A DNA stretch of 64,000 nucleotides, taken from contig OX453280.1 of the NCBI GenBank assembly GCA_949710005.1, forward strand, positions 6,311,034 through 6,375,033. Direction: 5' to 3'. The stretch comes from Ricordea florida (Eukaryota; Cnidaria; Anthozoa; Corallimorpharia; Ricordeidae). Positions 19,231 to 49,964 of this stretch are shown in pieces. The first letter of the stretch is position 1, and every line of letters begins with the position of its first letter. A program made the position numbers and the translations under genes. A model generated the notes under the pieces. That model saw nothing but the letters and a program-made list of their open reading frames with translations. It made no database searches and had not been told where the DNA came from.

Positions 19231-19900
19231 CACAGGATGAAATGACATATTTAATGTTTCTTAAAGGTAACTTAAAGATACAGTAAAGAAGCATTTGCTG
19301 TATCTTTACTTTTGACTTAAATATTTTAAGTGTTAGTTTCCTTAACCTTTAAGGATAGCAAGTAAACTGATTAATGAACGACTTAATCATTATTTAAGAT
19401 CTGTTCTTAAAGAGTCATTAATGACTCCTTTAAGAACATCTTAAAAATACAGTAAAGCATCATTTCCTGTATCTTAAAGAAACATCTTAAAGATACAATA
19501 AACCATCGTTTCCTGTATCTTTAAGAACATCTTAAAGATACAGTAAAGCATCATTTCCTGTACCTTTAAGTTTGGCGAAACATTTTAAATGTTTGTTTCC
19601 TTAACCTTTAAGGATAGAAAGTAAATTGATAAAATGACTTCTTTAAGAACATCCATCTGAGTAATTAAAGGTCAGGAAATAGTCATTTCATTTGCTTTCA
19701 AATAGTAAATGTTTATTAAATGTAAAGGAAAGTATTCTTTATGTATCTTTAATGACAATTTAAAAGGAAACAAGTGTTCAATGATTAAATAGCTATAATT
19801 TCTATGGTGAGTATATTAAAAACTGTTCTTTAGTATCTTTAAAGTCTAAAGGGAATAAATGCTAAGAGAATTTAATTTTTTTTATAACATTTAATTAAGT
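19231..19900 (+). repeat. Left subterminal repeats of E
   Basis: Repeated blocks of the type CTTAAAGATACAGTAAAGCA followed by TTTCCTGTATCTTTAAG occur several times, each a small palindrome built on CTTTAAG/CTTAAAG. The same block is mirrored at 48,780-49,460 in the inner copy. Such arrays near transposon ends usually bind the transposase. Confidence 0.7.
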
Positions 19901-20544
19901 GGACAAGGTAAAATTACTTCCTGCAAACTTTCTCTTCACCATCACCTTTTACATTTTTGGATATAACATCTGCTGCCTGATTTGCCCTGTCCGAATACAA
20001 GCGCTTGTAATCACACAACTCATATAAGACAGTACTGGAGTTGCAACAGCCACATCAAGCAATACATGTATATTATGGCTGTTAAGAACCAATTAGATTT
20101 GAGCATTTTGTTCTTGACACATGTACAATTAACTTTCCAACTGAAACAATTATTGAACTAAATTTCTATATTTCTATTCTTCTCTGGTACTGATTCAGTA
20201 AGAAATATAACGTTTCACTGCATTTGTTTTGTATATATATATATATATATCTATTTGTATTTCTTTGAAAAATTTTTTTTTCAAATAAAGACTAATGTGT
20301 CACTTAATCAACCCCTTCTTTTCATAGTTAATTTACCAATTCAAGAATGTAAGTGAAAATGCATTATTCAGCAAGGTAACAACTTATAAAAAATCTGAGC
20401 ATGTGTTCTTTCTAAGTAATTAGTTAAACATTGCTTGTATTTACTGCAAAATGTTCAAACTGCAATTCTATACTTTTCTGGTAATGATTAACTAACGTAT
20501 ATAATAAAATTTCATTCACATATACAGCTAATTATCTCTATTTT

Positions 20545-20819
20545 TAGTATAAATACTCAGGTGATTATACAAAATCACGCGCTCTGATTGGTTCGCTATC
20601 TCGGATTATCAGCCGATAATCACCTCAATGAACAACATGGCTGACAGTCGTTCGCGTGCTTTTGATGAAATAAATGTTTGTCACGTTATACAATGCTTTT
20701 TCTTTCCTTTTTTGAAAGAATCACCTGTGTACTTATACTAAAACAATTATTCACCTCAGGCTCAATGATTCTCAGTGAATATTCCCAGAGAATCACTAAG
20801 CCTGAGGCGAATAATTGTT
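20545..20819. mobile_element. Composite MITE (copy 2), inside E
   Basis: Same two-unit structure as 2,948-3,247: TAGTATAAATACTCAGGTGA to ATACTA (20,545-20,740), then the AACAATTATTC hairpin (20,742-20,819). It is at the same place in both E copies, so it was already in E when the copies separated. Confidence 0.8.
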
Positions 20820-20865
20820 AAATAATACTACAACTGAAAATTGTTTCAAAATAAAGTAATCAATT

Positions 20866-21308
20866 CTAAGCACATGCCCATTCTGGGCAGTTATCCGGTT
20901 TTGGACGGACAGAGATCATCCCTTCATGCCTAACTCTTTTTATAAGTCGCTGCCTTGAGCGCTTGGACTGGTTTTTTTCATGTGTTTTGTCCAAGACTTT
21001 TTTCCTTTTTGTTAATCTTTCACTTTCCCATGTGATTGTCCTAACTATGTAGGTTAGTTGATCATCTTCATTTGATGACTCCTCTGTGGACATGTAGTCC
21101 TCCGTTAAAACTTCAGCCACTTGCCCTTTCTTTTCTTTGCTCCAATTTATCACTTCCAAGGCAAGTGTTCTTCTACTAAGTTTCTGCAATGAAATTAATA
21201 TTAATTTCATTAATATGATCCAAGTTGTCCTAAAAAAAACAAACAAAGCCAAGGAAGAGCAACAACAAGGACAAGAACAACAACCAAAGACAAAACAACT
21301 TGTAATAT

Positions 21309-21366
<58 letters not shown>

Positions 21367-22325
21367 ATAGGGAAGGAAACCCCAGCTATTTTTGAACAAT
21401 AATTATTGGTCAAGCTGTACCAATGAAAAGCAAGGGATGATTCTTGATAGACATAGCTGTTAACAAAAATTATTTTAAACAATATTTCAATATGAACTCA
21501 CTTCTCTTTTTCTAGATTGCCGCCTGCACTTTTGCTTGTGGTCTTCATATTTGCCACTACTTCTTTTCTTAACAGTTTCGTAAGTTGAAAGAAAGTACCG
21601 TCTAAATGCCTCTATGGTAATCAAAGAAAAAGAAAGAACATGTATGAGGACCTGAACTGGAGTCAAATACCAGGGTTATGTATGACTAGGGTGGGAAGTG
21701 GGGATTGATTGCATTTGGAATTGACTGATGCATTGACTTCTATGACCTTCTACAACTGGAAGAATTAAATTCAGAGACACTGATCTCTGTTATTTTCACC
21801 TGTCCCTTTATTAGGGTACATCTTTTCAGCTTTATTGATAATGAAATTTTTGTTTTTGTTTTGTTTTGGTTAGTGCATGTCTTCTTTGAGACAAATCATT
21901 TGAAGGGATTAAAGGTTTGGGTCTTTGAGTAAATGAATTAATGTTCATGATCATTAATATTGTAATTAATACCAGTATTTGTTTCCTGTACTTCATGGTA
22001 CAGGATCAACCTGCCAACTACATGTAGATATACATCTTGATGAAAGTGCACAAAAACCCAGACATGTTACTAAATGTTTTCAATACTAATACATCAACAT
22101 TATTAGGACTACAGGGTTTTGACCTGAAGAACAGCTCTTGTAGTCACTTTGTCTTGTGAAGACTAATTATTTAATTTAATTTGCACAAATGTTACTTCAA
22201 CTCTATGCAAACACAGACCATGCTTGTGTGTCTCAAAATGATTATTGTTAAGCTTTGATGCAAATTTTCAGACCAAAATTCACTTACACACTAGGTTACA
22301 CTTTTATCAGAATATAATATAAAAT

Positions 22326-22380
<55 letters not shown>

Positions 22381-23920
22381 TGCAATGAAATTAACCTTAC
22401 CCTCAATCTGTGCATCTGACCATGCACAACGATCTTGCCCGCCTACATAGTGATAGATTTCATCCTTGACTCTTTTGAATACCTCACTATTTGCAGCTGA
22501 GTTAACACTAACAAAAGAATCAAAAAGTAAGAAAGAAATGAAGAAATACTTTACAAATAAGACTAATTAGGTTTTAGCACTGTACATCAACAAATTAGTG
22601 ACTAATCATCCACGCATACCTGCATCTGTCCATCATGCCATTTACAAATTCGTCAAAAGTGACTGATCCTTTATCAATCGGGATATAGCTAGTGTCTTGC
22701 AAATTTTACTAAAATGTTACAACTCTTGTGGTCAATAGCAAGTTTACATCTAAAGTCCTAAAAATCATGAACTGTCAAAGGTGATAACAACCACAGACTT
22801 TATGGACTGTTTTTATTAAAAGTATCTCAAACTTGATGAGTGATTTGCTTATGAAAAATTAAACTTGGCATGAGCTTCTTTACCTCTCTTCAAGATGAAA
22901 ACCACTGAAATCCTCTTTCTCAGATAGAGTGCTGTACACTTTTCGCAAGGTACGCTTAAAGAGAAATAAATGTCATTAGAATGTGTATCATTTATCTTAT
23001 TCATTGTATTGGTAAGTGCAGAAAGTCAGTAAAAATCAAGCACTTTGATTGACTTGCACAGTTAGGACAGTTTCACTTATCTGCACATTGATACACTCAG
23101 ACTGGTCTCCAACACAAATATTTCAACCATGCAGGTGACCTACTGGTCTCATTTACAATGTATAGTGACACCACTAATCTGATGCATAAATGCATAGGAT
23201 AGTATTTTTTACCATGGCCTAATCTACACATTAGAGAGAATCAAAATGTACTGGATAGGTAAACATATGCATGTACATGTATCTGGTTAGCAATGATTCC
23301 TTTTTCCTGTCCACTTGCAATACAAACCTTTATATTTTTCACATGGCAGTTAACTCGATTACCCACGATGCATTTAATGCCTGGTCTATTTCGCTCTCAA
23401 GACAATTTAAGTTGACATTATATGATTTTTTTGATATATTTTTCTTATGATTAGGCGAACTTAAAGAGAGCATGTTGATAACGAGAACAAGAAGATGGAA
23501 ATTTATTTAAGCTTACAGACACAAGCTTTAGAAATCGGGCATATGATCGAGAATTGCAGCTTGAATAAAAAAAAAACTGGCGTCAACAGCGTAGAACTAA
23601 CCGTAGATAACGAAGCCTAGAGTTTGCAATACCCGGCCACTTATTCTCAAAGTGCTTTACTGCGAAACACTTACCCGACAACTAGGGGGAACTTGTACTT
23701 TATCCTTCTTACGCGACAGCCGTGACTGCCCTTGGTTTCCAAAATTTCGGTTTTGTTTTAATTCTTGAAGCTCCTTTAACACATCGTGAAGAACTTTATT
23801 GTGCTTCTCGTCCCTCGATTTTATCTCATCTTGGAGTTTCTTGTTCTCCGCTATAACTTCCTTGTTGGTTTGAAGTGTTCTCTCCAGAAGAACAGCTTGA
23901 TCGTCGGTAATGCCCGCCAT
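20866..23920 (-). CDS. Six-exon E gene: 306-residue basic coiled-coil protein, function unknown
   Basis: Exons on the minus strand: 23,675-23,920; 22,884-22,954; 22,620-22,688; 22,401-22,507; 21,502-21,611; 20,866-21,183. All five introns are GT-AG, phases match, and the coding length is 921 nt with no internal stop, which strongly supports a real gene. Residues ~8-70 (ERTLQTNKEVIAENKKLQDE onward) form a coiled coil. The middle has acidic/aromatic segments (DKGSVTFDEFVNGMMDRC; FKRVKDEIYHYV). The rest is rich in Lys/Arg with an acidic patch (STEESSNEDD) and ends NCPEWACA. I do not recognise a family. Basic regions and a coiled coil would suit a DNA-binding or structural role, or an atypical transposase; none of this is shown. 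It is divergent from the kinase gene. Confidence 0.75.
21314..21363 (+). repeat. (CA)n microsatellite in an intron of the E gene
   Basis: About 24 CA units. The matching (GT)n tract in the inner copy (43,510-43,556) is slightly shorter. Confidence 0.95.
22327..22374 (+). repeat. (AT)n microsatellite
   Basis: About 23 TA units just beyond the donor of exon 4 of the minus-strand E gene; the inner copy (42,519-42,546) has about 14. Confidence 0.95.
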
Positions 23921-24783
23921 TTCGTGCTTGGTTTCTTGTAAATTAAGCTAAGGTTAAAAGTTTTCCAACCCTTTGAACTGGAACTGCTCTGGAAAACGCG
24001 CGCTAGCAATAATTTATGCAACCTATTTTGGCGCGCAAATACTAATTGCAACTTTGGGTACGGGAGGTAAGGGAGAGGTGTTCATGGCAGTTGAGAATTG
24101 TTTCGTGTTCATTTTCATTGTAACCAGGTAATATTAGCTGTGAAGCAATTATTTATGTTTAAGTGTTTGTTTAAGATAAATTTTCCCTCCGAAAGCAGAG
24201 TAAGATTGGAGAAATTGTATGTATTGCAGACTAGCCACCCCTAGCCAGTGAATCAGTCACGCAGCGACTCACGCAGGCTCACGTACATGTAGCTGTCAAA
24301 TAATGCGCACGCACACCTGATCATTGCCTGCAAAGATCGTGACCACTGTTATGATAAAATCAGGGCAATCTTAGCTTTAAGCAAGCTGTGTACCTGAAGC
24401 AAAAATTTCTTATTCACTTCAATTTTCCTATCATTTTTCTGGTAGTATTTTTATCTCATGCGTTCAAAACATAGCCCACTTCAGAAAAGAGTGATGACCC
24501 GGGCCGAGAGTCGGGAAAGTTGGCCAATGACGGCAGTTAATTGTGTCAGCGGTTGTCTTGCGGGCGGGCGCGGGAAATTTTCTCATGTTGAGTGGGTCTA
24601 GCTTGTAGCTTGCTTTACAGTAATTTGCCATGAAAAGACGTAGCAGGAATAATACTATGGAGGAAAGAAAGCGAATGCTCAAAGAACGAAAAAATAGAAA
24701 GCGACGGCAGCGGCTTTTAGAACGAAGGAACCGAGCAGAGGCGCGACTTGTAGCCGAATTGAAGGAAACAACGAAGCGTATAT
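23921..24783. promoter_or_regulatory. Probable bidirectional promoter of the two E genes
   Basis: The two E genes point away from each other across 863 bp. The interval contains a GC-richer block (GGCGGGCGCGGGAAATTTT near 24,560) and a reverse CCAAT-type sequence. Inference from gene arrangement; no core promoter element was identified with confidence. Confidence 0.4.
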
Positions 24784-24836
24784 ATGGAACGCCAGCGGGA
24801 AATTTACGCCTATCTTTCAAGAAAGTACTACGATAG
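24630..24836 (+). CDS. Short basic ORF overlapping the kinase start (possible uORF)
   Basis: A 68-residue frame starting MKRRSRNNTMEERKRMLKER, very rich in Arg/Lys and bZIP-like in its basic region but without a leucine zipper. It overlaps the first kinase exon in another frame. It is conserved without change in the inner copy (37,177-37,383). It could be an upstream ORF that limits kinase translation, a separate small protein, or chance. Confidence 0.35.
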   Translation: MKRRSRNNTMEERKRMLKERKNRKRRQRLLERRNRAEARLVAELKETTKRIYGTPAGNLRLSFKKVLR

Positions 24837-26003
24837 GTGGCGTTCTCTTCCTAAAACAAAAGAGAATTGTGAAATTCGGAAAACAATATTCATGCCTGAA
24901 CAGCGAAAGGTAAGAATCGATCGTCCTGTGTTTATAATGAGGACCTGCTTGTTGAATGTTAATATCAATGTTGTTGAGCTGCTGTATAAGCTTATGTTAG
25001 GACAATAAGCTTGCTGCAATCGATTCATTCCTCTCTTTGTAGTCGCTAGTTTTCCTGTGTTTGGAAGAGCAGCGATTTTGCAAGGGTTTATTAACTTTTC
25101 AATAAGCGTGGGAAGCCGGGTCAAATAACTCTTTCCTGCAAAATGACCACCATTTTAAATCAGATAAAGGACTATGTAAATTTATCAGGTACATGTAGCT
25201 GATTTTATCTTCATCAACTACAGGTGTCTAAAGAGAAGCCTATTCAGGCACATATTGCAGAGATTGACCGTAGTCTATTAGAGACTCCAAGCGATAAAGA
25301 TGAGAGAAGCCACCTTGGTTCAGGTATGTTTGGTTCCTGCCAGAAAATGTTTTACCGAGGTACACCTGTAGCTGTCAAGAGCTTTTCCTCTGCTACTTCA
25401 GAAGATGTTAAAAGAGAAGCCATGATAATGATGTCATTGCAACACCAAAATATTCCCTTTCCTTTAGGGATCTCAATAGAATCAACTCCTAAATTATTAG
25501 TCATGAGTTATTATGACATAAACAACAAAGCATTTACAATGTACACTGCCCTCCATAGCAAGTCACTGCATCTTTCACAAGCAATTTGGTGCAGCATAAC
25601 ACTGCAGCTGGCTCAAGCAATTTCATATCTGCGGTTTATTCACCAAGACATTAAATTGGACAATGTTCTTGTTTCATTTTGGAATAATAAGTACAGAGCA
25701 GTCTTGATCGATTTTGGGAAGTGCATAACAACAGCTGCTGGGTCTGTCAAACACCTCTCACATGAAGAGCAACAAGAATACCACAAGAAGCATGCTCACA
25801 TAGCTCCAGAAATAGTATCTGGAGCAAGTAAACCTTCTGCTGCTAGTGATATTTACTCCTTTGGTAGAATAGCTTCTGTAATTGCCAAAAGTGTTGAAAG
25901 CACTGTCCTTAAAAGTATAGGGAACAAGTGCACTAGCTTCAATCCAAATACAAGACTGCATTTAAATGACATCATTAAGCAGCTTGGTGCTGTTACCGAA
26001 TAA
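24784..26003 (+). CDS. Protein kinase carried by element E, intact
   Basis: Two exons, 24,784-24,909 and 25,224-26,003 (GT-AG, phase 0), encode 301 residues. The start is the first Met after an in-frame TGA at 24,760. Motifs in order: glycine loop LGSGMFGSC (73-81), VAVK lysine (94), a Glu in KREAM (107), catalytic HQDIKLDN (182-189), DFG (205-207), APE (236-238), SDIYSFG (250-256) and a late Arg (286). Every catalytic residue of an active Ser/Thr/Tyr kinase is present; HQD replaces the usual HRD. The domain fills nearly the whole protein, with no transmembrane or SH2-like part. Looks most like a tyrosine-kinase-like or dual-specificity type; the substrate is unknown. The inner copy has a 1-nt deletion near its C-terminus, so only this copy is complete. 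Confidence 0.85.
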
Positions 26004-26149
26004 TTGTTGTGGATTGCTGGAAATTGTTGGTAGGAGTTTGTTAGCATGACATTTATATTCTAAGAAAAAATTATTCACATTGACAAAATTAAAGGAAATA
26101 TTTCATTGTCTTAATTATCAGATCCCATTGCAACTGCTTTCAAATGCAA

Positions 26150-27360
26150 TTTAGATAGTGACTGAATCCGAATAAGTATTGGTACTTGCAAGTTTGAATT
26201 ATTTCTTGAATAATGGAGTAGCTCACCAGAGTACTGAGCCGCTTTCTTGATGGCTCATCAAATGTTAGCAAGTGGCGAGATGGCGCATCTTGTCAGTCAG
26301 TTCTTTGGTGATGCTAGCTTTCAGAGTTTTCTGAAACCTACCCAAATAGTGACATTCATAGATGTGTGCACAGATTATAAGAAAAAACCATTAATTTTCA
26401 TTTTTCTGCTGACATGGCTCCATGCATAGCAGTTTCTTGGGGATCAAACCAGACAAGATTATTAAGAGGGCTTAATGGACAAATGAATTATTTATTGTTT
26501 AAATTTTAAAATATTACAGTAATAATTAAATTTAAGTATCAGTTCATGTTGTGTTGATTTGCCAATAGAGTGAGAACAAGAGTAAATGAGTACATTTATC
26601 ATCATGTTTATTTATAAATACATTTGCTGAATATTAAATATACATTTATTATTTCAACAGAGATTTTTTTCTGAAAGTAACATACATGTACATAATTAGT
26701 TTCATGTGTGTAGATTATATTTAAGATGAAATAAGCTACATTATTTTGCTGACCTTGCTTATTTTATAATGGATTTAATAGACAAATGAATTATTTATTG
26801 TTCAAAAATATCACAATATTCCCATTCAAATTAAACTTACGTATAAGATCCCATTTATTGATGGAGTAAGAACCTAAATAAGCAGGTGTAGTAAAATTCA
26901 GTAACAAATTTGCATTCCTGTATGATGGCGTAGCTCACCAGTGTACTGAGCCGCTTTCTTGATGACTCATCAAATGTTAGCAAGTGACAAGATGACACAT
27001 CTTGTCAGTCAGTTCTTTGGTGATGCTACAGCTGTAGTTTCAAGAGGTTGTTATGAAACCGAGATGCAAATACCTACATACAGGTATGTACAGATTACAA
27101 GATGAACAAATTTGATTAATTCTGCAGATGTTGCTTCATGCATTGCACTTTCATAGGGACCAAACAAATCAAGATTAATAACTCTTTACCCACTAAGAGT
27201 GACTTCATAGATTTTACTCTGTCTAATGCCAGACGGTTTTACTTGTCACAAGGAGACCTCTTAGGAGAGGTCTCAAGGAGACCTCTAAAAGACAAAATAT
27301 TTAAATTTTTAAAAATTTCCCAGCATTACAGTTATAAATGAACTTAAGTACCACATCCCA
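26150..27360 (+). repeat. Diverged tandem duplication downstream of the kinase gene
   Basis: Blocks at about 26,215-26,480 and 26,925-27,170 share GCTCACCAG, CTGAGCCGCTTTCTTGATG, CATCAAATGTTAGCAAGTG and CTTGTCAGTCAGTTCTTTGG. A weaker third unit follows near 27,300. 27,155-27,343 is absent from the inner copy and contains a GGAGACCTCT repeat. No coding function seen; it may be the kinase 3' UTR and beyond. Confidence 0.65.
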
Positions 27361-28279
27361 TTGTTTCTAGTTTCGAATATTAGAGAGAGCAGTGTTTATG
27401 GAAACCTTAGACTTTAATCATCACCTTTAATTTCAGGAAAGAAGTTGCTGATATGTAAAAGGAAAAGTAATAAACTGTATTGTTTTGGTGGGTTGACTTT
27501 CACTCACCACTTTTGTGTCTTCATTGTCAAATTTAGGTCTTTTTCATGGTAGAGATCTATCAGTCACATTATTCATCATGTAAACACAAACTGGGGGTCA
27601 TATGCCATTTAGCAAGTCAATCAAGTCCTGAGTTATGTCATAACGAACACAACAATGGGCCCAACCCTTAAACAACATAATATACTTCACACAATAGAAC
27701 AACACAGTAGTGTATATACATGTATTGACTTGGTATATGGAGCATCACCCGAAATTGGTGAATGGAAAAAAGGGCTTTTTTGCAATAACTGGTAAATTGA
27801 TATTCTCCATTGGTTATGAGTCAAAAGCTGATAATGAGGTCAGTTTCAACCATGTGGAAACCCAATATCATACTGATACTGTAGAGAAGAGTGTGATGTA
27901 GTTGGGTTGGGATGTATGCAATGAGTTTTAATCGTATGGAGCACATGAAGTTAATGTTCATTGCCGCATACTGAGTAAGGGACTGAGTAATTTGTTTAAT
28001 TATGTAATTTGATATAATATTTTTGGAGTATAAGCTCAGAGCATTTTATTTAAATCATTGGTTCCTTTTGTATTGCCTTGTGGGGTAGAGAGCTCATGGT
28101 TTTTTCTCAGCAACTTTGATAAATTGGTTTTGTAAATTGTACTGGTACACTTGAGCTGCACTGTTCTTTAATACATGTAGCATGTCAGTTTGTTTTTCTT
28201 TATTTTTGTTGGTTTGCTTTTAACTGTTGTCTTTACGAAAATTTGAGTGTTACCGCTTAAATACTGTAGTACATTTACT

Positions 28280-28487
28280 GGATCATGTATCTTATGGGGG
28301 TGCCTTGACCGATACATCGGTCGACCCATCGTTTGAGATCGGTCAATGTCTCGACCGATATACTCGACCGATACTCGGTCGTCATATCTACCATGTATCG
28401 GTCGAGTACCGATCAAGACATCGATCGATATCTTGATCGATGTGTCGACGGATGTATTGGTCGAGGCCCCCATAAGGTACATGATCC
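28280..28487. mobile_element. GGATCATGTA MITE with dense ATCGGTCGA motifs (outer E copy)
   Basis: GGATCATGTATCTTATGGGG at the left is mirrored by CCCCATAAGGTACATGATCC at the right. The ~150-bp interior is almost entirely made of ATCGGTCGA/TCGACCGAT-type words in both orientations. It sits inside the first of the right-end tandem repeats of E, and is present in both E copies. Confidence 0.75.
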
Positions 28488-28550
28488 CCATTTTCTTAGT
28501 TAAAGGCATATTTCAATTTAACTTTTTTTCTGAGACCTCATTAAATTTTT

Positions 28551-29053
28551 CACAGGGCGAATTAATACATTTATGAACTTTTAAGAAAAAATTAAATGGC
28601 ACTTAAACTTGATGAGAATGTTTAATTTAAGCCGTAAAGCTTCTTAAAGTTCTTAAAGGGCAAGAAAATCTTTAAGATGTCTTTAATGACATTTAAGTTT
28701 TATTAAATGTATTTGTCAACAAACATGAATTTACTGCCTTTAATTGGGTCTTGGAAAGGTAACTTAAATTGAAATGTGCCTTTAACTAACTTTAATTTTC
28801 CCATTAAAGGTTAAGTAAATGTAATACTGTATTTAAGTGGTAACACTTAAATCTTCGTAAAGACAACAGTTAAAAATCACATTTATAAATCTTTAGGAAA
28901 GATTTATATGGCACTTAAACCTGATGAGAATGTTTAATTTAAGCCTAAAGCTTCTTAAAGCTTCTTAAAGGGTAAGGAACGCTTTAAGATGTCTTTAATG
29001 ACATTTAAGTTTTATTAAATGTACTTGTCAACAAACATGAATTTACTGCCTTT
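28551..29053 (-). repeat. Right-end subterminal tandem repeats of the inner E copy
   Basis: About 1.7 units of a ~290-bp repeat containing CTTTAAG/CTTAAAG words, ACAACAGTTAAA and GTCAACAAACATGAATTTAC. It starts at the CACAGGGCG terminus of the inner copy. The identical block closes the outer copy at 49,461-49,964. Confidence 0.7.
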
Positions 29054-29108
29054 AATGAGGTCTCAGAAAAAAAGTTAAATTGAAATATGCCTTTAACTAA
29101 GAAAATGG

Positions 29109-29316
29109 GGATCATGTACCTTATGGGGGCCTCGACCAATACATCCGTCGACACATCGATCAAGATATCGATCGATGTCTCGATCGGTACTCGACCGATA
29201 CATGGTAGATATGACGACCGAGTATCGGTCGAGTATATCGGTCGAGACATTGACCGATCTCAAACGATGGGTCGACCGATGTATCGGTCAAGGCACCCCC
29301 ATAAGATACATGATCC
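29109..29316. mobile_element. GGATCATGTA MITE with ATCGGTCGA motifs (inner E copy)
   Basis: Inverted counterpart of 28,280-28,487 and nearly identical to it. The two copies face each other 620 bp apart near the centre of the giant palindrome. Confidence 0.75.
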
Positions 29317-29754
29317 AGTAAATGTACTACAGTATTTAAGCGGTAACACTCAAATTTTCGTAAAGACAACAGTTAAAAGCAAACCAACAAAAATAAAGAA
29401 AAACAAACTGACATGCTACATGTATTAAAGAACAGTGCAGCTCAAGTGTAACAGTACAATTTACAAAACCAATTTATCAAAGTTGCTGAGAAAAAACCAT
29501 GAGCTCTCTACCCCACAAGGCAATACAAAAGGAACCAATGATTTAAATAAAATGCTCTGAGCTTATACTCCAAAAATATTATATCAAATTACATAATTAA
29601 ACAAATTACTCAGTCCCTTACTCAGTATGCGGCAATGAACATTAACTTCATGTGCTCCATACGATTAAAACTCATTGCATACATCCCAACCCAACTACAT
29701 CACACTCTTCTCTACAGTATCAGTATGATATTGGGTTTCCACATGGTTGAAACT

Positions 29755-29897: not shown

Positions 29898-29943
29898 CTG
29901 GCAAAGAGGATCAACACAAGAATCCAAAAATCATAATCAAGAC

Positions 29944-37861: not shown

Positions 37862-39778
37862 CTAGAAATACGACTCCCGCAAAAACCTCGCGAAGCTAGT
37901 TTTTGAAGAAGTCACAATGCTTTCATATTTTATTCTTTATTTTTTTTTATATTATATATTTTATTTTTTATATTAGCGTAATCCCCATTATTTTATTTCT
38001 TATGCTGTGTTTGGTACACAATTAGTGACACCTGGTGCAAATTACATGATCAGTATACCGCTCAACACAGTGCTTAAAAATTGACCTTCATTTAGCTCTT
38101 TCACTGCCACTGAGATTGCACCAGAGGGAATAGACGTAAAATTATTTATTATCTTGACAGGGAATACAGAGTCGATGAAGTATCACAATAATATTCACTT
38201 AACACAAATTGAAAATGATTGTAAATCTTTTGCAGGTGAAATCTTGAAGAGTTGATATGAATGCTTGTGTTTACCACGGTGTAAAAACCTGTGTTTTTTT
38301 TCTTTAGTTTTATTTTCTTAGTCTCTACTGCTTTGTCTTCTTTGTTGTACATCACTTTTGAACACAATATGTTCTTACACAGAGGATGAGCTGAACGCTC
38401 CAATTATTTTTTGTTTATGTTTTTTTGGTTATAATTGCATGAGATTCATTGTAAGAAGAATCTTCTGATTAGATATTTTATTGTCTACTGCAGTCATTAT
38501 TTCATTCCCGGGTAACCACAATTGAGAGCATTATGAATAGTGCATGTTTTAATGTGTGTACTCTTTCCAGTTGCAATGGTACCCCCAGTGGTAGATAGAA
38601 AAATTCCTCTTCCCTCAAAAGAGATGCCATATCAACAAGTTGGGGGTAAAACAATTGGATTCTACAAAAGCTTTGAATAAAGGTTTGGTAATAGTGAGTG
38701 CCCACTGTATAGTATGTGGTTGTGCTATTTTTAGGTCATATCATAAAAACAATACATGTAAGAAAGAGTTATTGAAATCTTAATATGTTCAAAAAGATTG
38801 CTGCACTACGTACTCCTGTAAAAAAATAATGTGAAATCAACATCAATCAGTCAAAAGTATATACCACATGAAAGTTTAATTGTGCTGTTACAGAAACAGG
38901 CAAAATATCCATACCCAACCATAGAATAGTACATTATTTTGAATATATGAAAATTTCTATTATAAAAACTGCAGAAGAAAGATTTAATATAAGGACGGTA
39001 TTTCATCGAAAAAGTCATGGCAGCCAGAGGTATTGAACTGTAACCAATGACATATAGTAACGAGAAGAACTATCATTATATTATTATCATTATTATTATC
39101 ATTACTATTATTATTACTGGTATTGATATTATTATTGTTATATTTTTTATGTTAAACATAATATATTTTTATGGGGTGGGATTCATGTCTTAATCTTGGT
39201 AAAGTTATTGTTACTCTACTACTAAAAGCAATACAAAAATCTTCTTAATAGGCTTTCCATCAGAGGTGGTAGTAATCAAAACAGCTCCAAACAATACCAT
39301 TTCTTCTAAAAGGCTTAGAATCTAGTGCAGTCATTTGTCTATACAGTTTGTGTGGAAAATCATTATTGAAAGCATAGGGCATTTAGGAAACTTGAAACAC
39401 TTGTTACTACATACAGCACACTTGCAATGAATATATGAGAAAGATCATAAACGTTTTGGCATTACAAAATTTATTTTCTTCTTTATAAAGTTTTTCCAAT
39501 GTAAAAGGTTAATTGCATGTTGTGGTTGTTATGAAATATTGATATTTGACATAAAAATAAAGTAAACGGCAGAAAGTAACAAAGTTAATATGTTATGTCT
39601 AACTTTGCAAATTAAGGCTTGAATTAACATTTCATTTGTGAAAAAAGGGCAGGGGTTCTAGATAGCAATATTATCAGGGGGGGGGGGGGTCATTGCACTC
39701 TAAGGTAAAACTGACCCATTGTGAAAAGGCTATGAAACTTGTCTCTACACAATATTATTGAAACCTTTCAATCAGAGA

Positions 39779-39809
<31 letters not shown>

Positions 39810-40837
39810 GCAAAGAGAAATACTACTCAGAATTCAGTAATCACATTTGCTTTATTTTAAAATGATCACATTGATCACTGATAATATTGCAGAACCAGTA
39901 CTTTATAGTGACACAGGGTATACATTCTGTTGAAAATGTTTAACATAACTGCTAGATCAAGAAAATTTACAATATTTTCACTGTTGCAATGATATCAGAT
40001 CACATCGTTATAAATGATTGCTATAACAACTGCAACTCTCTGTGTTGGAAATTACTTCAAACTGGAAACGCTATCGTTTTATTATGAAAAATACCTATTT
40101 ACATTCTCTTGTAATCTGTTGGTCGTCTTCCGATTCCGGTTTTAGACTAATAGAATTATTTTCCAGAGACATCTCCAATCGTTGAAGTCGTTCTTACTCG
40201 GTGTCCCTTCTAAGTCGTTTTGCTAAATGTAGTACACCAATATATTTCGTTATGTAATCGTTCACTCATGTCCTGTATTTCTATCAATAACACATTCAAA
40301 TTCAAAACTAACTTGATTGAATTCCTGGTCCTTTTCCCTGCTGTTTCGTTTGCCTTTTTCTGGAGCGAGCAGTTGTTGTCTTTGCTGCGATTTCTGTTGT
40401 TATTCTCCCTGCTGTCGTTTCTCTATCCCTGCTTTGAGTCGTGCTTTCCTCGTGTTGATTTTCACGGTATTCGAACTTACTCGGCGACGATCTCGTGCTA
40501 ATATTTCTTGAATATCTTGGAGATCACCTTGCTGGGATGTACTTCCAGGACGAGTGAAATCGGTTTCCACAAAATTTACATTACTTTCAAAAAGGCATCA
40601 CCGAATAATGGCGGAAATTCAGCGTTCTCAAGTGCGTTACTATTGCCAGGTAACCTGGCCTGCGAACGGACACCTTTAAAATATAGATATATATAAACAT
40701 ATATATAAATATATATATATACATATATAAAAACTCTCGGCTCGATTTACTCGGGCTTGCGAGCCACGTGGTCTGACCGGAACCGACACGATTAGTAACC
40801 TCGCTTCGCTCGGCCTTCGGCCTCGCTTCGCGAGGAA
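37862..40837 (-). mobile_element. Helitron-like insertion, non-coding
   Basis: The outer copy has an uninterrupted ACATAAATAATTG where the inner copy has 2.97 kb. On the minus strand the insert starts TTCCTCGCGAAGCGAGG, ends GGGAGTCGTATTTCTAG and is followed by T. It has no target duplication beyond a 1-2 bp A/T overlap. CTAG fits the CTRR end of Helitrons, which insert between A and T and carry a palindrome near the 3' end (CTTCGCGAG is close). A strong hairpin of the GAAGCGAGGCCGAAGGCCGAGCG type lies at the other end. The interior is AT-rich with microsatellites and a G-tract near 39,677, and no Rep/helicase. A non-autonomous Helitron is the best guess. Confidence 0.5.
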
Positions 40838-42514
40838 TAATTGCTTCACAGCTAATATTACCTGATTACAATGAAAATGAACACGAAACAATTCTCAACT
40901 GCCATGAACACCTCTCCCTTACCTCCCGTACCCAAAGTTGCAATTAGTATTTGCGCGCCAAAATAGGTTGCATAAATTATTGCTAGCGCGCGTTTTCCAG
41001 AGCAGTTCCAGTTCAAAGGGTTGGAAAACTTTTAACCTTAGCTTAATTTACAAGAAACCAAGCACGAAATGGCGGGCATTACCGACGATCAAGCTGTTCT
41101 TCTGGAGAGAACACTTCAAACCAACAAGGAAGTTATAGCGGAGAACAAGAAACTCCAAGATGAGATAAAATCGAGGGACGAGAAGCACAATAAAGTTCTT
41201 CACGATGTGTTAAAGGAGCTTCAAGAATTAAAACAAAACCGAAATTTTGGAAACCAAGGGCAGTCACGGCTGTCGCGTAAGAAGGATAAAGTACAAGTTC
41301 CCCCTAGTTGTCGGGTAAGTGTTTCGCAGTAAAGCACTTTGAGAATAAGTGGCCGGGTATTGCAAACTCTAGGCTTCGTTATCTACGGTTAGTTCTACGC
41401 TGTTGACGCCAGTTTTTTTTTTATTCAAGCTGCAATTCTCGATCATATGCCCGATTTCTAAAGCTTGTGTCTGTAAGCTTAAATAAATTTCCATCTTCTT
41501 GTTCTCGTTATCAACATGCTCTCTTTAAGTTCGCCTAATCATAAGAAAAATATATCAAAAAAATCATATAATGTCAACTTAAATTGTCTTGAGAGCGAAA
41601 TAGACCAGGCATTAAATGCATCGTGGGTAATCGAGTTAACTGCCATGTGAAAAATATAAAGGTTTGTATTGCAAGTGGACAGGAAAAAGGAATCATTGCT
41701 AACCAGATACATGTACATGCATATGTTTACCTATCCAGTACATTTTGATTCTCTCTAATGTGTAGATTAGGCCATGGTAAAAAATACTATCCTATGCATT
41801 TATGCATCAGATTAGTGGTGTCACTATACATTGTAAATGAGACCAGTAGGTCACCTGCATGGTTGAAATATTTGTGTTGGAGACCAGTCTGAGTGTATCA
41901 ATGTGCAGATAAGTGAAACTGTCCTAACTGTGCAAGTCAATCAAAGTGCTTGATTTTTACTGACTTTCTGCACTTACCAATACAATGAATAAGATAAATG
42001 ATACACATTCTAATGACATTTATTTCTCTTTAAGCGTACCTTGCGAAAAGTGTACAGCACTCTATCTGAGAAAGAGGATTTCAGTGGTTTTCATCTTGAA
42101 GAGAGGTAAAGAAGCTCATGCCAAGTTTAATTTTTCATAAGCAAATCACTCATCAAGTTTGAGATACTTTTAATAAAAACAGTCCATAAAGTCTGTGGTT
42201 GTTATCACCTTTGACAGTTCATGATTTTTAGGACTTTAGATGTAAACTTGCTATTGACCACAAGAGTTGTAACATTTTAGTAAAATTTGCAAGACACTAG
42301 CTATATCCCGATTGATAAAGGATCAGTCACTTTTGACGAGTTTGTAAATGGCATGATGGACAGATGCAGGTATGCGTGGATGATTAGTCACTAATTTGTT
42401 GATGTACAGTGCTAAAACCTAATTAGTCTTATTTGTAAAGTATTTCTTCATTTCTTTCTTACTTTTTGATTCTTTTGTTAGTGTTAACTCAGCTGCAAGG
42501 TTAATTTCATTGCA

Positions 42515-42551
<37 letters not shown>

Positions 42552-43510
42552 ATTTTATATTATATTCTGATAAAAGTGTAACCTAGTGTGTAAGTGAATT
42601 TTGGTCTGAAAATTTGCATCAAAGCTTAACAATAATCATTTTGAGACACACAAGCATGGTCTGTGTTTGCATAGAGTTGAAGTAACATTTGTGCAAATTA
42701 AATTAAATAATTAGTCTTCACAAGACAAAGTGACTACAAGAGCTGTTCTTCAGGTCAAAACCCTGTAGTCCTAATAATGTTGATGTATTAGTATTGAAAA
42801 CATTTAGTAACATGTCTGGGTTTTTGTGCACTTTCATCAAGATGTATATCTACATGTAGTTGGCAGGTTGATCCTGTACCATGAAGTACAGGAAACAAAT
42901 ACTGGTATTAATTACAATATTAATGATCATGAACATTAATTCATTTACTCAAAGACCCAAACCTTTAATCCCTTCAAATGATTTGTCTCAAAGAAGACAT
43001 GCACTAACCAAAACAAAACAAAAACAAAAATTTCATTATCAATAAAGCTGAAAAGATGTACCCTAATAAAGGGACAGGTGAAAATAACAGAGATCAGTGT
43101 CTCTGAATTTAATTCTTCCAGTTGTAGAAGGTCATAGAAGTCAATGCATCAGTCAATTCCAAATGCAATCAATCCCCACTTCCCACCCTAGTCATACATA
43201 ACCCTGGTATTTGACTCCAGTTCAGGTCCTCATACATGTTCTTTCTTTTTCTTTGATTACCATAGAGGCATTTAGACGGTACTTTCTTTCAACTTACGAA
43301 ACTGTTAAGAAAAGAAGTAGTGGCAAATATGAAGACCACAAGCAAAAGTGCAGGCGGCAATCTAGAAAAAGAGAAGTGAGTTCATATTGAAATATTGTTT
43401 AAAATAATTTTTGTTAACAGCTATGTCTATCAAGAATCATCCCTTGCTTTTCATTGGTACAGCTTGACCAATAATTATTGTTCAAAAATAGCTGGGGTTT
43501 CCTTCCCTAT

Positions 43511-43560
<50 letters not shown>

Positions 43561-43769
43561 ATATTACAAGTTGTTTTGTCTTTGGTTGTTGTTCTTGTCC
43601 TTGTTGTTGCTCTTCCTTGGCTTTGTTTGTTTTTTTTAGGACAACTTGGATCATATTAATGAAATTAATATTAATTTCATTGCAGAAACTTAGTAGAAGA
43701 ACACTTGCCTTGGAAGTGATAAATTGGAGCAAAGAAAAGAAAGGGCAAGTGGCTGAAGTTTTAATGGAG

Positions 43770-46700
43770 TAAGTAAGTAAGTAAGTAAAAACTTTATTTC
43801 AGTGTCAATGGATTTAGCCCTTGTGGGCTAATTGGGGACACTAATTAGAATACTTAACCTAAAATCATTTAAAATGCCTAACTATTGAAACTATTTACAA
43901 CTAGTACTTACAGTATTTTCTGTTAGCCTGATATCATTTAAAATACTTAAAAAGAAATAGACTGGTATTTGCAGTATTTCCTACGCACTGCAGAGCTTAC
44001 AGCAGTTGCTGTTGTTTTCTATATAGTCCGAAAGAGTGAGTTTTCTAATTTTAGTTCTAAAAGTAGCTACTGTAGGCGAGTTTTTCAAGTCTTTGCTTAA
44101 TTTTGTCCATAGTAATGGTCCAAGATATCTAATACAATGTTTCGCGTAACGTTTAGTGTCGAAACGCGGTAAGACAAAATCACTGTTTCTAAGCGAGTGT
44201 GTAGAGCGTTTGCGGACGAAAAGTGCAGAGACGTTTTCTGGTGCAAGCCCATTCTTGACCTTGTACATAAGTATTGCTGTATCCTGTAAACGCCTATCAT
44301 ATAATGTGGGCAAATCTGCACGTCCCAAAAGCTCTTTGTAGGTTTCGGAGTGTGATTTATATACAGCTCTTAGTGCGCGTTCCTGAATTCGCTCGAGTTT
44401 CCTTTTGTCCGATGACCTACAAAATTGCCATATTAAATGGCAGTATGTTAGGTAAGGCAAAATGAATGTCTTATACAATAATAACTTAGCCTTGCAAGGT
44501 ATTAAATTGCGAAGGCGAGAAAGTACTCCGACTTTCTGGCTGGCCTTAATGCATAACTCGCGGATATGCTCGGTGAACTCAAGTTTATCGTCGATGTAAA
44601 CTCCCAATAGTTTGATTTTTTCTGTTTTTATAATGTCTGTGTCGTCAATGTTGAGGACTGTGTCACTCTTGTTCTTATCGAGTTTCCTTGGATTAATAAT
44701 TAGCGACTGGAACTTGTCTGGGTTTGCTTTTAAGTAGTTCTTTGAGTACCAGGTCAGGGCTTGCCTACCATGAATTTTCAAGCTGCGTCCAACTGTTTCG
44801 TGGTCCGTTCCCTTAGCGTACATTTGATGGTCGTCAGCGTACATAGTTAAGTTTGCGTCCTTTACATGTGATGGCAGATCATTTTGAAACATGTTCCAAA
44901 GTAGGGGTCCGAAGGATGATCCCTGGGGACATCCACGTTTCATCTTTATCCAATCACTAGTGATTTCGCCCAGTTTTACTCTATTCTGTCTGTTCTCAAA
45001 GAATGATCGCATTAGTCCGAGAGAACGTCTTCCAAAGCCGTAAGCCTCCAGCTTCTTAGTCGTCAAGGAATGGCTCAAGCTGTCAAAGGCCTTGCTCATG
45101 TCTGTAGATAGGATATAAACAAGTTGCTTTGTATCAGCAGCCAGTTTCCAATCTTCTATCAGGGCAAGTAGTGTTGTTTCGCAGCTGTGTTTCTTCCTGT
45201 ACGCTGTCATTCTGTAATACAGCGTTTTATCATAATGGCATGTCACCTGGTTGCAGAGTAACTGTTCGAATATTTTGTCAACTGCGATTAGGGAGGTGAT
45301 GGGGCGGTAGCTTTTAGTATCCTGTCTATCTCCCTTCTTAAACGCTGGTGTCCACTCTCCCATTTTCCATGCATTAGGCCATTCACCCTGCTCTATGCAG
45401 TTGTTGTAGAGGTTAGTAAGCGATGCTGCTGTACCCTTAGCCACGCTCTTGAGAAGCTTCGGTGAAATACCCAAGTCCCATCCACTGGATTTCTTTGAGT
45501 TGATCTTTTGAAGTGCCTGTTGTACTTCAGGTACCGAAAATAATTTGAAATCGAAATCATTTTCTTTATAGGCTTCTCGTATGCTCCTGACACTACTGTG
45601 CTCACTGTGGTCTTCCTCCGTGAGATTATTAGCATGATCTCCTCCAATATCTAACGCCACATTTGTAAAGTAGGTCGCCAGTGTTTCTGCTACTTCCTTT
45701 TGGTCCTTTACAACGTTGTGTTCGTTTGTCTTGAGATAGATTGCTGTTGGTTCCTTGCTTTTACTGCCGATAATAGGTTTAAAAGTGTCATAGAATTTAT
45801 CCGGTCTTGATTTAAGTTCTTCAGTCTTTTTATACCAATATGCTCTAATAGCTTTCCGGCGCTCTCGGGTAGCTATATTTCGATACTTTCTTTTGAGTTC
45901 TAGATTCTCAGCTGTACGATCTTTTGCAAACTTTCTTGCGTACTTCCTTTTGGTTCTCAAGGCCCTTTTCCATTCTTCTGTCATGTAAGGAATGTCCGTT
46001 TCTCTCACTCTCTTTCTTTTGACTGGCGCATGCTGGTCTACGACGTATTCAAAAAGTCCTTTCCAATAATCGTACTGATCGTCTGTGCTGGTGAAGATAT
46101 CGCCCACTTGCCAAGGCGCATTCATAAGTTCTTGATTGAGCAGTTCGAAATCAGCATTCTTAGTCTGCCTAAATGTCATGGTCTTTGGTTTATGCTTGCA
46201 GACTTTCTCTGTCATTTGACCGTAGATCAAATAGTGGTCACTTATCTCGGGGTTGTACACCCCGCAGTTTTTGAACAGCTCTGGCGTGTTTGTGAGAAGC
46301 ACGTCTAGGAGCGTCTGAGAGTGTATTGTGACTCTAGTGGGCTCTGTTATCAGGCAAGACAGGCTGTATACTTCCTCCAGATCTCTGAGTATCTTTCCCT
46401 CACCCCTGTCTGGGTTAAGCCTATCCATATTCAGATCTCCTAATACCACTATGGTCTGCTTTTGAAGACACGCCCACTGACAGATGTCATTCATTTCTTC
46501 CTCTACATTCTGCAGGTATTTTGATCCAGTGTTCCCTCTAGCTTGCTTAGGCGGTCTATAAAGCGCTAAAAACAGTATTTCCTTCCTGCCTATACTGCAT
46601 TCAACCGCGATAGCTTCGAGTGTCCTGTAAGTCTTTGGCAGTTTTAGTCTCTTCGAGGGCACAACTGTAGAAAAATAAGCAATGAGACCACCTCCTCCTT

Positions 46701-47577
46701 TGGCTCTGTCTCTACGATACATCTGGTATCCCTGTAGTCTAAACTGGTCGTCAGGGTAAGAACGATCAATTTTGGTTTCTGATACGATGAATATTTGTGC
46801 TTTCAGTAGGTCGTTCAGTAGTTTTAACTCTTCAAATTTATTCTGTATACTATTGATGTTCAGGTGTGCTACAAAAGCACTATTTGCATTGTTTTTCCTT
46901 TCTTCAACAATCCAGTTCATCTGGGAATTCTGAAGGTCTTCATTAGCATAATCTTCTTCGAAGTCCCTGGCTTCCATCGCCGAACCTGTTGACGATGTAT
47001 TTACTTGCATGTTAACCTCTTTTTCAAATGAATGGTTTACAGTCGTGAAGGGAAGATTACACAAAGAACATGTCCAGTCAATGTCAGGAAAATCTAAGTA
47101 GTACTTGAAAGAGGCCTTTGTTAGTCCAAGACATCTAGCGTGCGACCATGAATTACAAACAGCACATAAAAGAGCGTCCTGATTCGCGCGAACGTTTTTA
47201 CGACATTCCTTGCAAGGATATTTTGGTGGTTTGTTGATATTCCTGTTTGGTCCAGGGTTTGTTTGTACATCTCCTCCGAAAATAATTCGGTGTAGCTGGA
47301 AGGTGCTGTTACCGTTCGCAGTGTAATACGCTCTCGATGCAAGGTAAACATTTCCGCGGCCACGACCTCGTTGTGTAGTATGTTTCAAATTTACTACAGG
47401 TTGCCTTGCCGCTCTCGGTTCCTGTTTTGCAACAAAATTTAGACCGTATGGTAAAGTTGTATCCTCTTCATATCCGTAGTCCAGTGATGCGATCACGAGC
47501 GGGAAAATTAAGAAAAATCGCGGTGTCAGTGATTTGCATCCAGCCGCCATCTTTGGAGTCTCATTTGTTTAGGTTGT
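43770..47577 (-). mobile_element. CR1/L2-like non-LTR retrotransposon, apparently full length
   Basis: Inserted in exon 6 of the inner E gene, whose uninterrupted form in the outer copy defines the edges. The minus-strand 3' end is a (TTAC)n tail (43,770-43,787). The 5' leader before the ATG is only about 25 nt. The single long ORF is intact. No clear target duplication could be defined; only GGA is shared at the junctions. Confidence 0.85.
43981..47550 (-). CDS. Non-LTR polyprotein: signal-like N-terminus, 2A-like motif, PHD finger, APE endonuclease, RT
   Basis: 1,189 residues, uninterrupted. A hydrophobic stretch at 11-22 (RFFLIFPLVIAS) is signal-peptide-like. GGDVQTNPGP at 92-101 fits the 2A-like consensus, where the ribosome skips the Gly-Pro bond. 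A PHD-type zinc finger follows (C113, C116 ... WTCSLC). The APE endonuclease has AHLNINS, SETKID, YRPP, GDLNMD and SDH motifs. The RT has a PITSLIAVDKIFE region, DMSKAFDS, GCPQGSSFGPLLW and YADD (about 900), then the usual C-terminal thumb. A 2A motif in this place has been described in some APE-type non-LTR elements of marine invertebrates; here it would split off a ~100-residue leader. The element looks retrotransposition-competent. Confidence 0.9.
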   Translation of the reverse strand: MAAGCKSLTPRFFLIFPLVIASLDYGYEEDTTLPYGLNFVAKQEPRAARQPVVNLKHTTQRGRGRGNVYLASRAYYTANGNSTFQLHRIIFGGDVQTNPGPNRNINKPPKYPCKECRKNVRANQDALLCAVCNSWSHARCLGLTKASFKYYLDFPDIDWTCSLCNLPFTTVNHSFEKEVNMQVNTSSTGSAMEARDFEEDYANEDLQNSQMNWIVEERKNNANSAFVAHLNINSIQNKFEELKLLNDLLKAQIFIVSETKIDRSYPDDQFRLQGYQMYRRDRAKGGGGLIAYFSTVVPSKRLKLPKTYRTLEAIAVECSIGRKEILFLALYRPPKQARGNTGSKYLQNVEEEMNDICQWACLQKQTIVVLGDLNMDRLNPDRGEGKILRDLEEVYSLSCLITEPTRVTIHSQTLLDVLLTNTPELFKNCGVYNPEISDHYLIYGQMTEKVCKHKPKTMTFRQTKNADFELLNQELMNAPWQVGDIFTSTDDQYDYWKGLFEYVVDQHAPVKRKRVRETDIPYMTEEWKRALRTKRKYARKFAKDRTAENLELKRKYRNIATRERRKAIRAYWYKKTEELKSRPDKFYDTFKPIIGSKSKEPTAIYLKTNEHNVVKDQKEVAETLATYFTNVALDIGGDHANNLTEEDHSEHSSVRSIREAYKENDFDFKLFSVPEVQQALQKINSKKSSGWDLGISPKLLKSVAKGTAASLTNLYNNCIEQGEWPNAWKMGEWTPAFKKGDRQDTKSYRPITSLIAVDKIFEQLLCNQVTCHYDKTLYYRMTAYRKKHSCETTLLALIEDWKLAADTKQLVYILSTDMSKAFDSLSHSLTTKKLEAYGFGRRSLGLMRSFFENRQNRVKLGEITSDWIKMKRGCPQGSSFGPLLWNMFQNDLPSHVKDANLTMYADDHQMYAKGTDHETVGRSLKIHGRQALTWYSKNYLKANPDKFQSLIINPRKLDKNKSDTVLNIDDTDIIKTEKIKLLGVYIDDKLEFTEHIRELCIKASQKVGVLSRLRNLIPCKAKLLLYKTFILPYLTYCHLIWQFCRSSDKRKLERIQERALRAVYKSHSETYKELLGRADLPTLYDRRLQDTAILMYKVKNGLAPENVSALFVRKRSTHSLRNSDFVLPRFDTKRYAKHCIRYLGPLLWTKLSKDLKNSPTVATFRTKIRKLTLSDYIENNSNCCKLCSA

Positions 47578-47883
47578 GGACTACATGTCCACAGAGGAGG
47601 TCCACAGAGGAGGTCCACAGAGGAGTCATCAAATGAAGATGATCAACTAACCTACATAGTTAGGACGATCACATGGGAAAGTGAAAGATTAACAAAAAGG
47701 AAAAAAGTCTTGGACAAAACACATGAAAAAAACCAGTCCAAGCGCTCAAGGCAGCGACTTATAAAAAGAGTTAGGCATGAAGGAATGATCTCTGTCCGTC
47801 CAAAACCGGATAACTGCCCAGGATGGGCATGTGCTTAGAATTGATTACTTTATTTTGAAACAATTTTCAGTTGTAGTATTATT

Positions 47884-48150
47884 TAACAATTATTCGCCTC
47901 AGGCTTAGTGATTCTCTGGGAATATTCACTGAGAATCATTGAGCCTGAGGTGAATAATTGTTTTAGTATAAGTACACAGGTGATTCTTTCAAAAAAGGAA
48001 AGAAAAAGCATTGTATAACGTGACAAACATTTATTTCATCAAAAGCACGCGAACGACTGTCAGCCATGTTGTTCATTATCGGCTGATAATCCGAGATAGC
48101 GAACCAATCAGAGCGCGTGATTTTGTATAATCACCTGAGTATTTATACTA
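47884..48150. mobile_element. Composite MITE (copy 3), inner E copy
   Basis: Inverted counterpart of 20,545-20,819 with the same two units. Confidence 0.8.
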
Positions 48151-49460
48151 AAAATAGAGATAATTAGCTGTATATGTGAATGAAATTTTATTATATACGT
48201 TAGTTAATCATTACCAGAAAAGTATAGAATTGCAGTTTGAACATTTTGCAGTAAATACAAGCAATGTTTAACTAATTACTTAGAAAGAACACATGCTCAG
48301 ATTTTTTATAAGTTGTTACCTTGCTGAATAATGCATTTTCACTTACATTCTTGAATTGGTAAATTAACTATGAAAAGAAGGGGTTGATTAAGTGACACAT
48401 TAGTCTTTATTTGAAAAAAAAATTTTTCAAAGAAATACAAATAGATATATATATATATACAAAACAAATGCAGTGAAACGTTATATTTCTTACTGAATCA
48501 GTACCAGAGAAGAATAGAAATATAGAAATTTAGTTCAATAATTGTTTCAGTTGGAAAGTTAATTGTACATGTGTCAGGAACAAAATGCTCAAATCTAATT
48601 GGTTCTTAACAGCCATAATATACATGTATTACTTGATGTGGCTGTTGCAACTCCAGTACTGTCTTATATGAGTTGTGTGATTACAAGCGCTTGTATTCGG
48701 ACAGGGCAAATCAGGCAGCAGATGTTATATCCAAAAATGTAAAAGGTGATGGTGAAGAGAAAGTTTGCAGGAAGTAATTTTACCTTGTCCACTTAATTAA
48801 ATGTTATAAAAAAAATTAAATTCTCTTAGCATTTATTCCCTTTAGACTTTAAAGATACTAAAGAACAGTTTTTAATATACTCACCATAGAAATTATAGCT
48901 ATTTAATCATTGAACACTTGTTTCCTTTTAAATTGTCATTAAAGATACATAAAGAATACTTTCCTTTACATTTAATAAACATTTACTATTTGAAAGCAAA
49001 TGAAATGACTATTTCCTGACCTTTAATTACTCAGATGGATGTTCTTAAAGAAGTCATTTTATCAATTTACTTTCTATCCTTAAAGGTTAAGGAAACAAAC
49101 ATTTAAAATGTTTCGCCAAACTTAAAGGTACAGGAAATGATGCTTTACTGTATCTTTAAGATGTTCTTAAAGATACAGGAAACGATGGTTTATTGTATCT
49201 TTAAGATGTTTCTTTAAGATACAGGAAATGATGCTTTACTGTATTTTTAAGATGTTCTTAAAGGAGTCATTAATGACTCTTTAAGAACAGATCTTAAATA
49301 ATGATTAAGTCGTTCATTAATCAGTTTACTTGCTATCCTTAAAGGTTAAGGAAACTAACACTTAAAATATTTAAGTCAAAAGTAAAGATACAGCAAATGC
49401 TTCTTTACTGTATCTTTAAGTTACCTTTAAGAAACATTAAATATGTCATTTCATCCTGTG

Positions 49461-49964
49461 AAAGGCAGTAAATTCATGTTTGTTGACAAGTACATTTAAT
49501 AAAACTTAAATGTCATTAAAGACATCTTAAAGCGTTCCTTACGCTTTAAGAAGCTTTAAGAAGCTTTATGGCTTAAATTAAACATTCTCATCAGGTTTAA
49601 GTGCCATATAAATCTTTCCTAAAGATTTATAAATGTGATTTTTAACTGTTGTCTTTACGAAGATTTAAGTGTTACCACTTAAATACAGTATTACATTTAC
49701 TTAACCTTTAATGGGAAAATTAAAGTTAGTTAAAGGCACGTTTCAATTTAAGTTACCTTTCCAAGACCCAATTAAAGGCAGTAAATTCATGTTTGTTGAC
49801 AAATACATTTAATAAAACTTAAATGTCATTAAAGACATCTTAAAGATTTTCTTGCCCTTTAAGAACTTTAAGAAGCTTTACGGCTTAAATTAAACATTCT
49901 CATCAAGTTTAAGTGCCATTTAATTTTTTCTTAAAAGTTCATAAATGTATTAATTCGCCCTGTG
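49461..49964 (+). repeat. Right-end subterminal repeats of the outer E copy
   Basis: 504 bp ending CGCCCTGTG, differing by about one base in length from the block at 28,551-29,053. Rich in CTTTAAG/CTTAAAG words. Followed directly by GTA and unrelated DNA. Confidence 0.75.

Follow-up and report, generated by a model that had tools for sequence, protein, structure and literature searches.

The two nested elements in the window, by which we mean the whole 64,000-nucleotide stretch of Ricordea florida DNA analysed here (contig OX453280.1, positions 6,311,034 to 6,375,033), very probably descend by internal deletion from a CACTA/EnSpm transposon with three genes, as non-autonomous derivatives that were moved in trans and carry a kinase as an accessory gene. 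The transposon is of a known kind, CACTA, and it is the kinase, not the mobile machinery, that is the unusual part.

One element interrupted by an inverted copy of itself

A self-BLAST of the window and an inverted-repeat search gave the order A-S-A'-S', with A at 19231-28545, S at 28551-29053, A' at 29051-49460 and S' at 49461-49964; the aligned pieces of A and A' and of S and S' are 99-100% identical. One element (19231-28545 plus 49461-49964) is interrupted, in its right part, by an inverted second copy (28551-49460), and both searches confirm the proposal of the earlier note that an element of about 9.8 kb is split by an inverted copy of itself. Three insertions inside A', which that note had not mentioned, lie at 29755-34357, 37862-40835 and 43770-47612.

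19228..19230, no strand: GTA target duplication of the outer copy, left (partner 49965-49967)
19231..28545, plus strand: outer copy, left part, with left terminus CACAGGATGAA
28543..28550, no strand: AAA target duplication of the inner copy plus five extra T (partner 49461-49463)
28551..49460, minus strand: inner inverted copy with three later insertions (inverted-repeat search, self-BLAST)
29755..34357, plus strand: LTR retrotransposon in the inner copy (143-bp repeats; reverse transcriptase, RNase H, integrase)
37862..40835, no strand: unclassified 2974-bp insertion in the inner copy, with no open frame of at least 120 aa
43770..47612, minus strand: LINE-like element inserted in the inner copy, with endonuclease and reverse transcriptase
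49461..49964, plus strand: outer copy, right part, with right terminus CGCCCTGTG
49965..49967, no strand: GTA target duplication of the outer copy, right (partner 19228-19230)

The outer copy is delimited exactly by CACAGGATG...CGCCCTGTG with GTA flanking each side, just as had been described. The description of the inner ends as the same termini in reverse stood for the termini themselves, which are accompanied by an AAA duplication (read on the window strand) at 28543-28545 and 49461-49463; it did not account for five extra T (28546-28550), which separate the right terminus of the inner copy from that duplication. These five T at one junction are what might be expected if the nest were an assembly artefact fusing two separate loci, but the inner junctions carry an AAA duplication while the outer ones carry GTA, and the inner copy has three private insertions, so that we regard such a fusion as very improbable.

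Elsewhere in the window, self-BLAST detected a 240-bp piece near its start (2946-3185) that matches a section of the element (20544-20784) at 90% identity. Palindromic stretches at 10100-10799 and 52498-52651, self-complementary at 78% and 95%, lie outside the nested element.

The element is present in about two dozen copies

Copies were searched for in the whole 538-Mb genome. The last 504 bp of the element matched end to end at 24 places with 99-100% identity and the first 600 bp at 20 places with 98-100% identity, both counts including the two copies of the window, and the genome holds about two dozen copies in total. Among the 22 copies with both termini, 21 are flanked by an exact, directly abutting 3-bp direct duplication of varied sequence, the 22nd being the inner copy of the window; a further pair at C1:35.2 Mb lies outside this count because its left terminus is missing. 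Short inverted termini of the form 5'-CAC...GTG-3' are present (CACAGGATGAA / CACAGGGCGAA in paired copies). The search for further copies with the same ends and 3-bp duplications, which had been put forward as a check, thus found them, and the element is a real, recently amplified mobile element. By coordinates, eight copies measure 9.76-9.81 kb and the remaining ones are shorter or longer. A search of viral contigs for relatives returned none.

Four copies on C2 (13.2-13.4 Mb) have one common right flank and therefore look like a single insertion that was multiplied with its surroundings. Separately, three older copies (C12:13.7 Mb, C5:15.1 Mb and C5:14.1 Mb) have a nearly identical right flank, and for this reason look like duplicates of one locus.

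Both ends of the element are rich in the motif CTTTAAGA.

19259..19648, no strand: left subterminal region, with CTTTAAGA eight times, in both orientations
49525..49873, no strand: right subterminal region, six CTTTAAGA motifs

The 9816-bp reference contains 14 such motifs, all near the ends (8 left, 6 right) and none between. When the ends were shuffled with dinucleotides preserved, none of 500 shuffles reached 14 (maximum 11); longer tandem repeats contribute to the observed count.

A full-length copy carries the tnp2 transposase

No Pfam transposase was found in the scanned frames of the window. Searching the genome for tnp2 led to a copy of the same family that contains it (C15:11319619-11335175). 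This copy is 15.5 kb long, has the same ends as the window element and a 3-bp duplication (GAA/GAA), contains 15 CTTTAAGA motifs, one of them internal, and matches the 9.8-kb element on both flanks of an additional segment of some 5.35 kb. The segment encodes a 915-aa stop-to-stop open frame that Pfam assigns to Transposase_21/tnp2 (PF02992) at 5e-17, with DUF4218 matched weakly. The frame contains FDFFQP, SDIPAAR, GCSRC, HLHCH and FSFERYNG, which supply D, D, C(2)C, H(3)H and E in this order; the choice of the catalytic D and E within these motifs is our own reading of the sequence and should be taken as putative. A study of accessory genes of fungal transposons describes the same motif set for CMC elements (PMC12730594).

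Because the flanks of the C15 copy match and the copy has an additional tnp2 segment, we infer that the window elements are internal-deletion derivatives.

24345..24350, plus strand: internal-deletion junction, where about 5.35 kb including tnp2 is additionally present in the C15 copy

Direct reading of the junction (window 24345) showed 1 bp of microhomology, which ruled out the 5 bp that had been deduced from BLAST overlaps. The junction is crossed unbroken in the five other copies examined (C8, C3, C9b, C7 and C2a), as would be expected if a single deletion had occurred and its product had then been amplified.

In the C15 copy, a minus-strand gene comes first, followed by the divergent tnp2 and then by the kinase on the tnp2 strand. 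A diverged relative on C12, which is 92-94% identical over most of the right half, likewise has tnp2 upstream of its kinase half; its left end was not found.

In a copy on C9 (C9:12142170-12184410), an insertion sits exactly at the internal-deletion junction, with ACTGT on both sides and a 1200-aa frame that we take to be PolB-like, the insertion presumably being Polinton-like. A Polinton had been considered as the mover of the element and was rejected, as the PolB-like frame belongs to the insertion in this copy at 12.1 Mb.

The earlier note had seen in the element, for which no known transposase was recognised, the best candidate in the window for an undescribed mobile system; on such a reading, the kinase or the six-exon gene would be the mover. 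The window frames scanned lack a Pfam transposase, and about two dozen near-identical copies exist, both of which would be compatible with such a class. However, the C15 copy carries tnp2 between the same ends, in a segment missing from the copies of the window, and largely refutes this reading; the CAC...GTG ends with 3-bp duplications also speak against it. We therefore consider an undescribed class extremely unlikely, and an unknown superfamily was dropped once the C15 copy had been read. The suggestion to classify the element against EnSpm/CACTA was right, since its ends, its 3-bp duplications and the tnp2 of the C15 copy fit.

For the CACTA family, it is established that a tnp2 protein acting in trans moves elements by cut-and-paste with a 3-bp stagger. 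The window elements would have arisen in the same manner, with one internal deletion followed by amplification in trans, the tnp2 protein presumably being supplied by full-length copies.

The minus-strand gene is a candidate partner of the transposase

The minus-strand gene of the window has six exons.

23675..23920, minus strand: exon 1, coiled-coil-like
22884..22954, minus strand: exon 2
22620..22688, minus strand: exon 3
22401..22507, minus strand: exon 4
21502..21611, minus strand: exon 5
20864..21183, minus strand: exon 6

Its splice sites agree in phase and it encodes 306 aa, so that the six-exon gene noticed earlier is real. In Pfam, nothing scored above the cut-off for the 306-aa protein, and a protein search returned two relatives, P0020 and one protein of Acropora muricata; the predicted structure of P0020 has a mean pLDDT of 50. 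The gene was counted at 19 loci, namely the C15 copy and others outside the 9.8-kb copies of the window's family (E), which were left out, as were five loci with weak or broken last-exon rows (C14:12157960, C14:9805182, C12:9472113, C12:11600121 and C12:18393920). It is divergent from a tnp2 within 25 kb at nine of these 19 loci, comprising C15 and eight F33-type loci (F numbers give the rough percent identity of a kinase lineage to E); at the other ten, no tnp2 lies within 25 kb.

Partner proteins of CACTA transposases bind subterminal sites such as CTTTAAGA repeats. By analogy, the 306-aa protein is a candidate binder of these sites and may act as a TnpA-like partner.

The kinase gene is damaged in the abundant copies

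The element carries a kinase gene of two exons.

24630..24909, plus strand: exon 1, with a 4-bp frameshift near 24778 in the abundant copies
25224..26003, plus strand: exon 2, kinase domain; compared with older copies, 9 bp are deleted in frame near 25630

Pfam matched the window kinase to PF07714 (E 2.8e-22) and to PF00069, which bears out the earlier identification of a kinase as a real gene. Relative to the C2 copy at 13.37 Mb, exon 1 is frameshifted by 4 bp in the seven other fully aligned copies, which also show an in-frame deletion of 9 bp. This 9-bp deletion is present in the window copies and lies before the catalytic loop, just ahead of HxD; the copies on C4 and C12, like the C2 13.37-Mb copy, do not have it. 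In the C15 kinase, exon 1 does not read through in one frame, and the kinase-domain exon is open over 269 aa. Because the abundant young derivatives have a damaged kinase, the kinase is not needed in cis.

In an alignment of eight kinase sequences from families at 32-52% identity, the VAVK lysine, HxD, N, DFG and APE are invariant, and the HRD arginine varies (R, Q or N).

Where kinase and tnp2 lie close together, their order is fixed

Genome searches gave 147 rows for the kinase and 119 for tnp2, both of which are lower bounds; merging second pieces of one locus by hand reduced these to 144 and 101 loci, respectively. Among them, 17 kinase-tnp2 pairs lie within 15 kb of each other, where 0.2 would be expected if the two were unlinked. 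In all 17, the kinase is downstream of tnp2 on the same strand, and it is never upstream or on the opposite strand. The pairs are distributed over four diverged lineages of the kinase, E (4), F45 (6), F33 (5) and F40 (2), within each of which copies are not independent.

No tnp2 lies within 15 kb of 127 of the 144 kinase loci, including 81 of the 83 F40 rows. Conversely, the kinase list, itself a lower bound, has no entry beside seven tnp2 loci with about 47% identity or beside two tnp2 loci of F33 type (C1:41.16 and C4:28.93). As a separate observation, most of the 83 rows of the approximately 40%-identical kinase (F40) have one identical score and a 298-aa open frame, and in two F40 copies that we compared, the flanks (1.6 kb upstream, 2.1 kb downstream) share at least 99.7% identity.

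One could suppose that CACTA elements insert by chance next to kinases that are normal genes of the host, as annotations of other anthozoans list the relatives as ordinary kinases. But the E-family kinase lies inside the termini and recurs with about 98% protein identity at many chromosomal sites, and order and strand are the same in 17 of 17 tnp2 pairs, which makes this explanation highly implausible.

Kinase relatives, and a kinase/right-end module joined to two transposase lineages

Among the matches listed (120 of 316), kinase relatives with an organism name came from Montipora, Oculina, Desmophyllum, Actinia and Paramuricea, all of which are anthozoans, and protein searches with the element proteins found relatives from Montipora and Acropora. 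A tree of 54 proteins places the kinases of the R. florida genome at five points among sequences from other sources.

The sole unsaturated comparison between families, F45 against F38, gave a kinase dN/dS of about 0.27 (two pairs, dS 0.8-0.85). Within families the values are 0.35-0.57, at a dS of only 0.02-0.03, and for tnp2 they are 0.04-0.15 (three comparisons, high dS). dS is saturated for the kinase pairs E-F51 and E-F45 and for the transposase pairs C15-F45.

The C15 transposase is 72% identical to that of F33 and 37% to that of F45, while the two pieces of the C12 transposase match that of F45 at 80% and 66% identity and that of C15 at 46% and 31%. The kinase and right end of C15 and C12 are nonetheless 91-95% identical at the DNA level, and the C15 kinase is 33% identical to the F33 kinase and about 45% to that of F45. 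Since C15 and C12 share this module and their transposases differ, one kinase/right-end module is joined to two transposase lineages.

Possible role of the kinase

A part in the control of transposition, or in an action against host factors, would best explain why the intact kinase is conserved. As an accessory gene of the transposon lineage, it may phosphorylate the transposase, its partner or host factors, and this phosphorylation could either tune transposition or allow the element to escape control. We tentatively extend this to anthozoan CACTA elements in general, for which it is conceivable, though short of probable, that a dedicated kinase is a conserved third gene that is swapped together with the right end among transposase lineages and controls transposition through phosphorylation of proteins of the element itself or of host factors for silencing and repair. 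Such a DNA transposon would bring along a signalling enzyme of its own.

The kinase might instead be a mere passenger of a CACTA element, that is, a kinase picked up from the host by an ancestral element and playing no part in transposition. Its damage in the abundant young copies, the majority of kinase loci with no tnp2 nearby and the tnp2 groups without a kinase match would agree with a passenger. On the other hand, the active-site residues are invariant across families at 32-52% identity, dN/dS is 0.27 between F45 and F38, order and strand are fixed in 17 of 17 pairs, and one kinase module was joined to two transposase lineages. In view of this evidence, we deem a passenger rather unlikely and retain an accessory kinase as our working model.

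Comparison with known systems

With these results, an apparently unclassifiable repeat becomes a CACTA element with an explained deletion, and tnp2 transposons are associated, within one genome, with a kinase family that is annotated as ordinary kinases in anthozoans. Among the kinase genes tallied in coral genomes, some may belong to transposons, and if the kinase acts on transposition, it would provide a directly testable system of a transposon with its own phosphorylation control.

The element resembles CACTA/EnSpm (CMC) transposons in its CAC...GTG ends, its 3-bp duplications, its subterminal repeats and, in the C15 copy, a tnp2 with D, D, C(2)C, H(3)H and E. It differs from them in the protein kinase gene downstream of the transposase, which occurs in several families, and in the 306-aa divergent gene. 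Internal-deletion derivatives of CACTA elements that are moved in trans, such as dSpm of maize, are known; the derivative described here, in contrast, keeps the kinase and the 306-aa gene and has lost only the transposase segment. Our search of published papers found no report of a kinase gene conserved in CACTA elements.

Like SmTRC1 and other animal CACTA elements, it is an animal element with Transposase_21 (PMC1636069). Target duplications of 2 bp were reported there, compared with 3 bp here, and the text of that paper nowhere uses the word kinase (PMC1636069). According to a study of fungal transposons, IS3EU elements carry an alpha-kinase and EnSpm elements a TET/JBP dioxygenase (PMC12730594). 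The anthozoan element shares with these an accessory enzyme gene, a fixed gene order and the passing of accessory genes between transposon lineages, and IS3EU with alpha-kinase is the nearest precedent that we found (PMC12730594). It is distinct from it in that the kinase here belongs to PF00069/PF07714, the transposase to PF02992 and the host to the anthozoans rather than the fungi.
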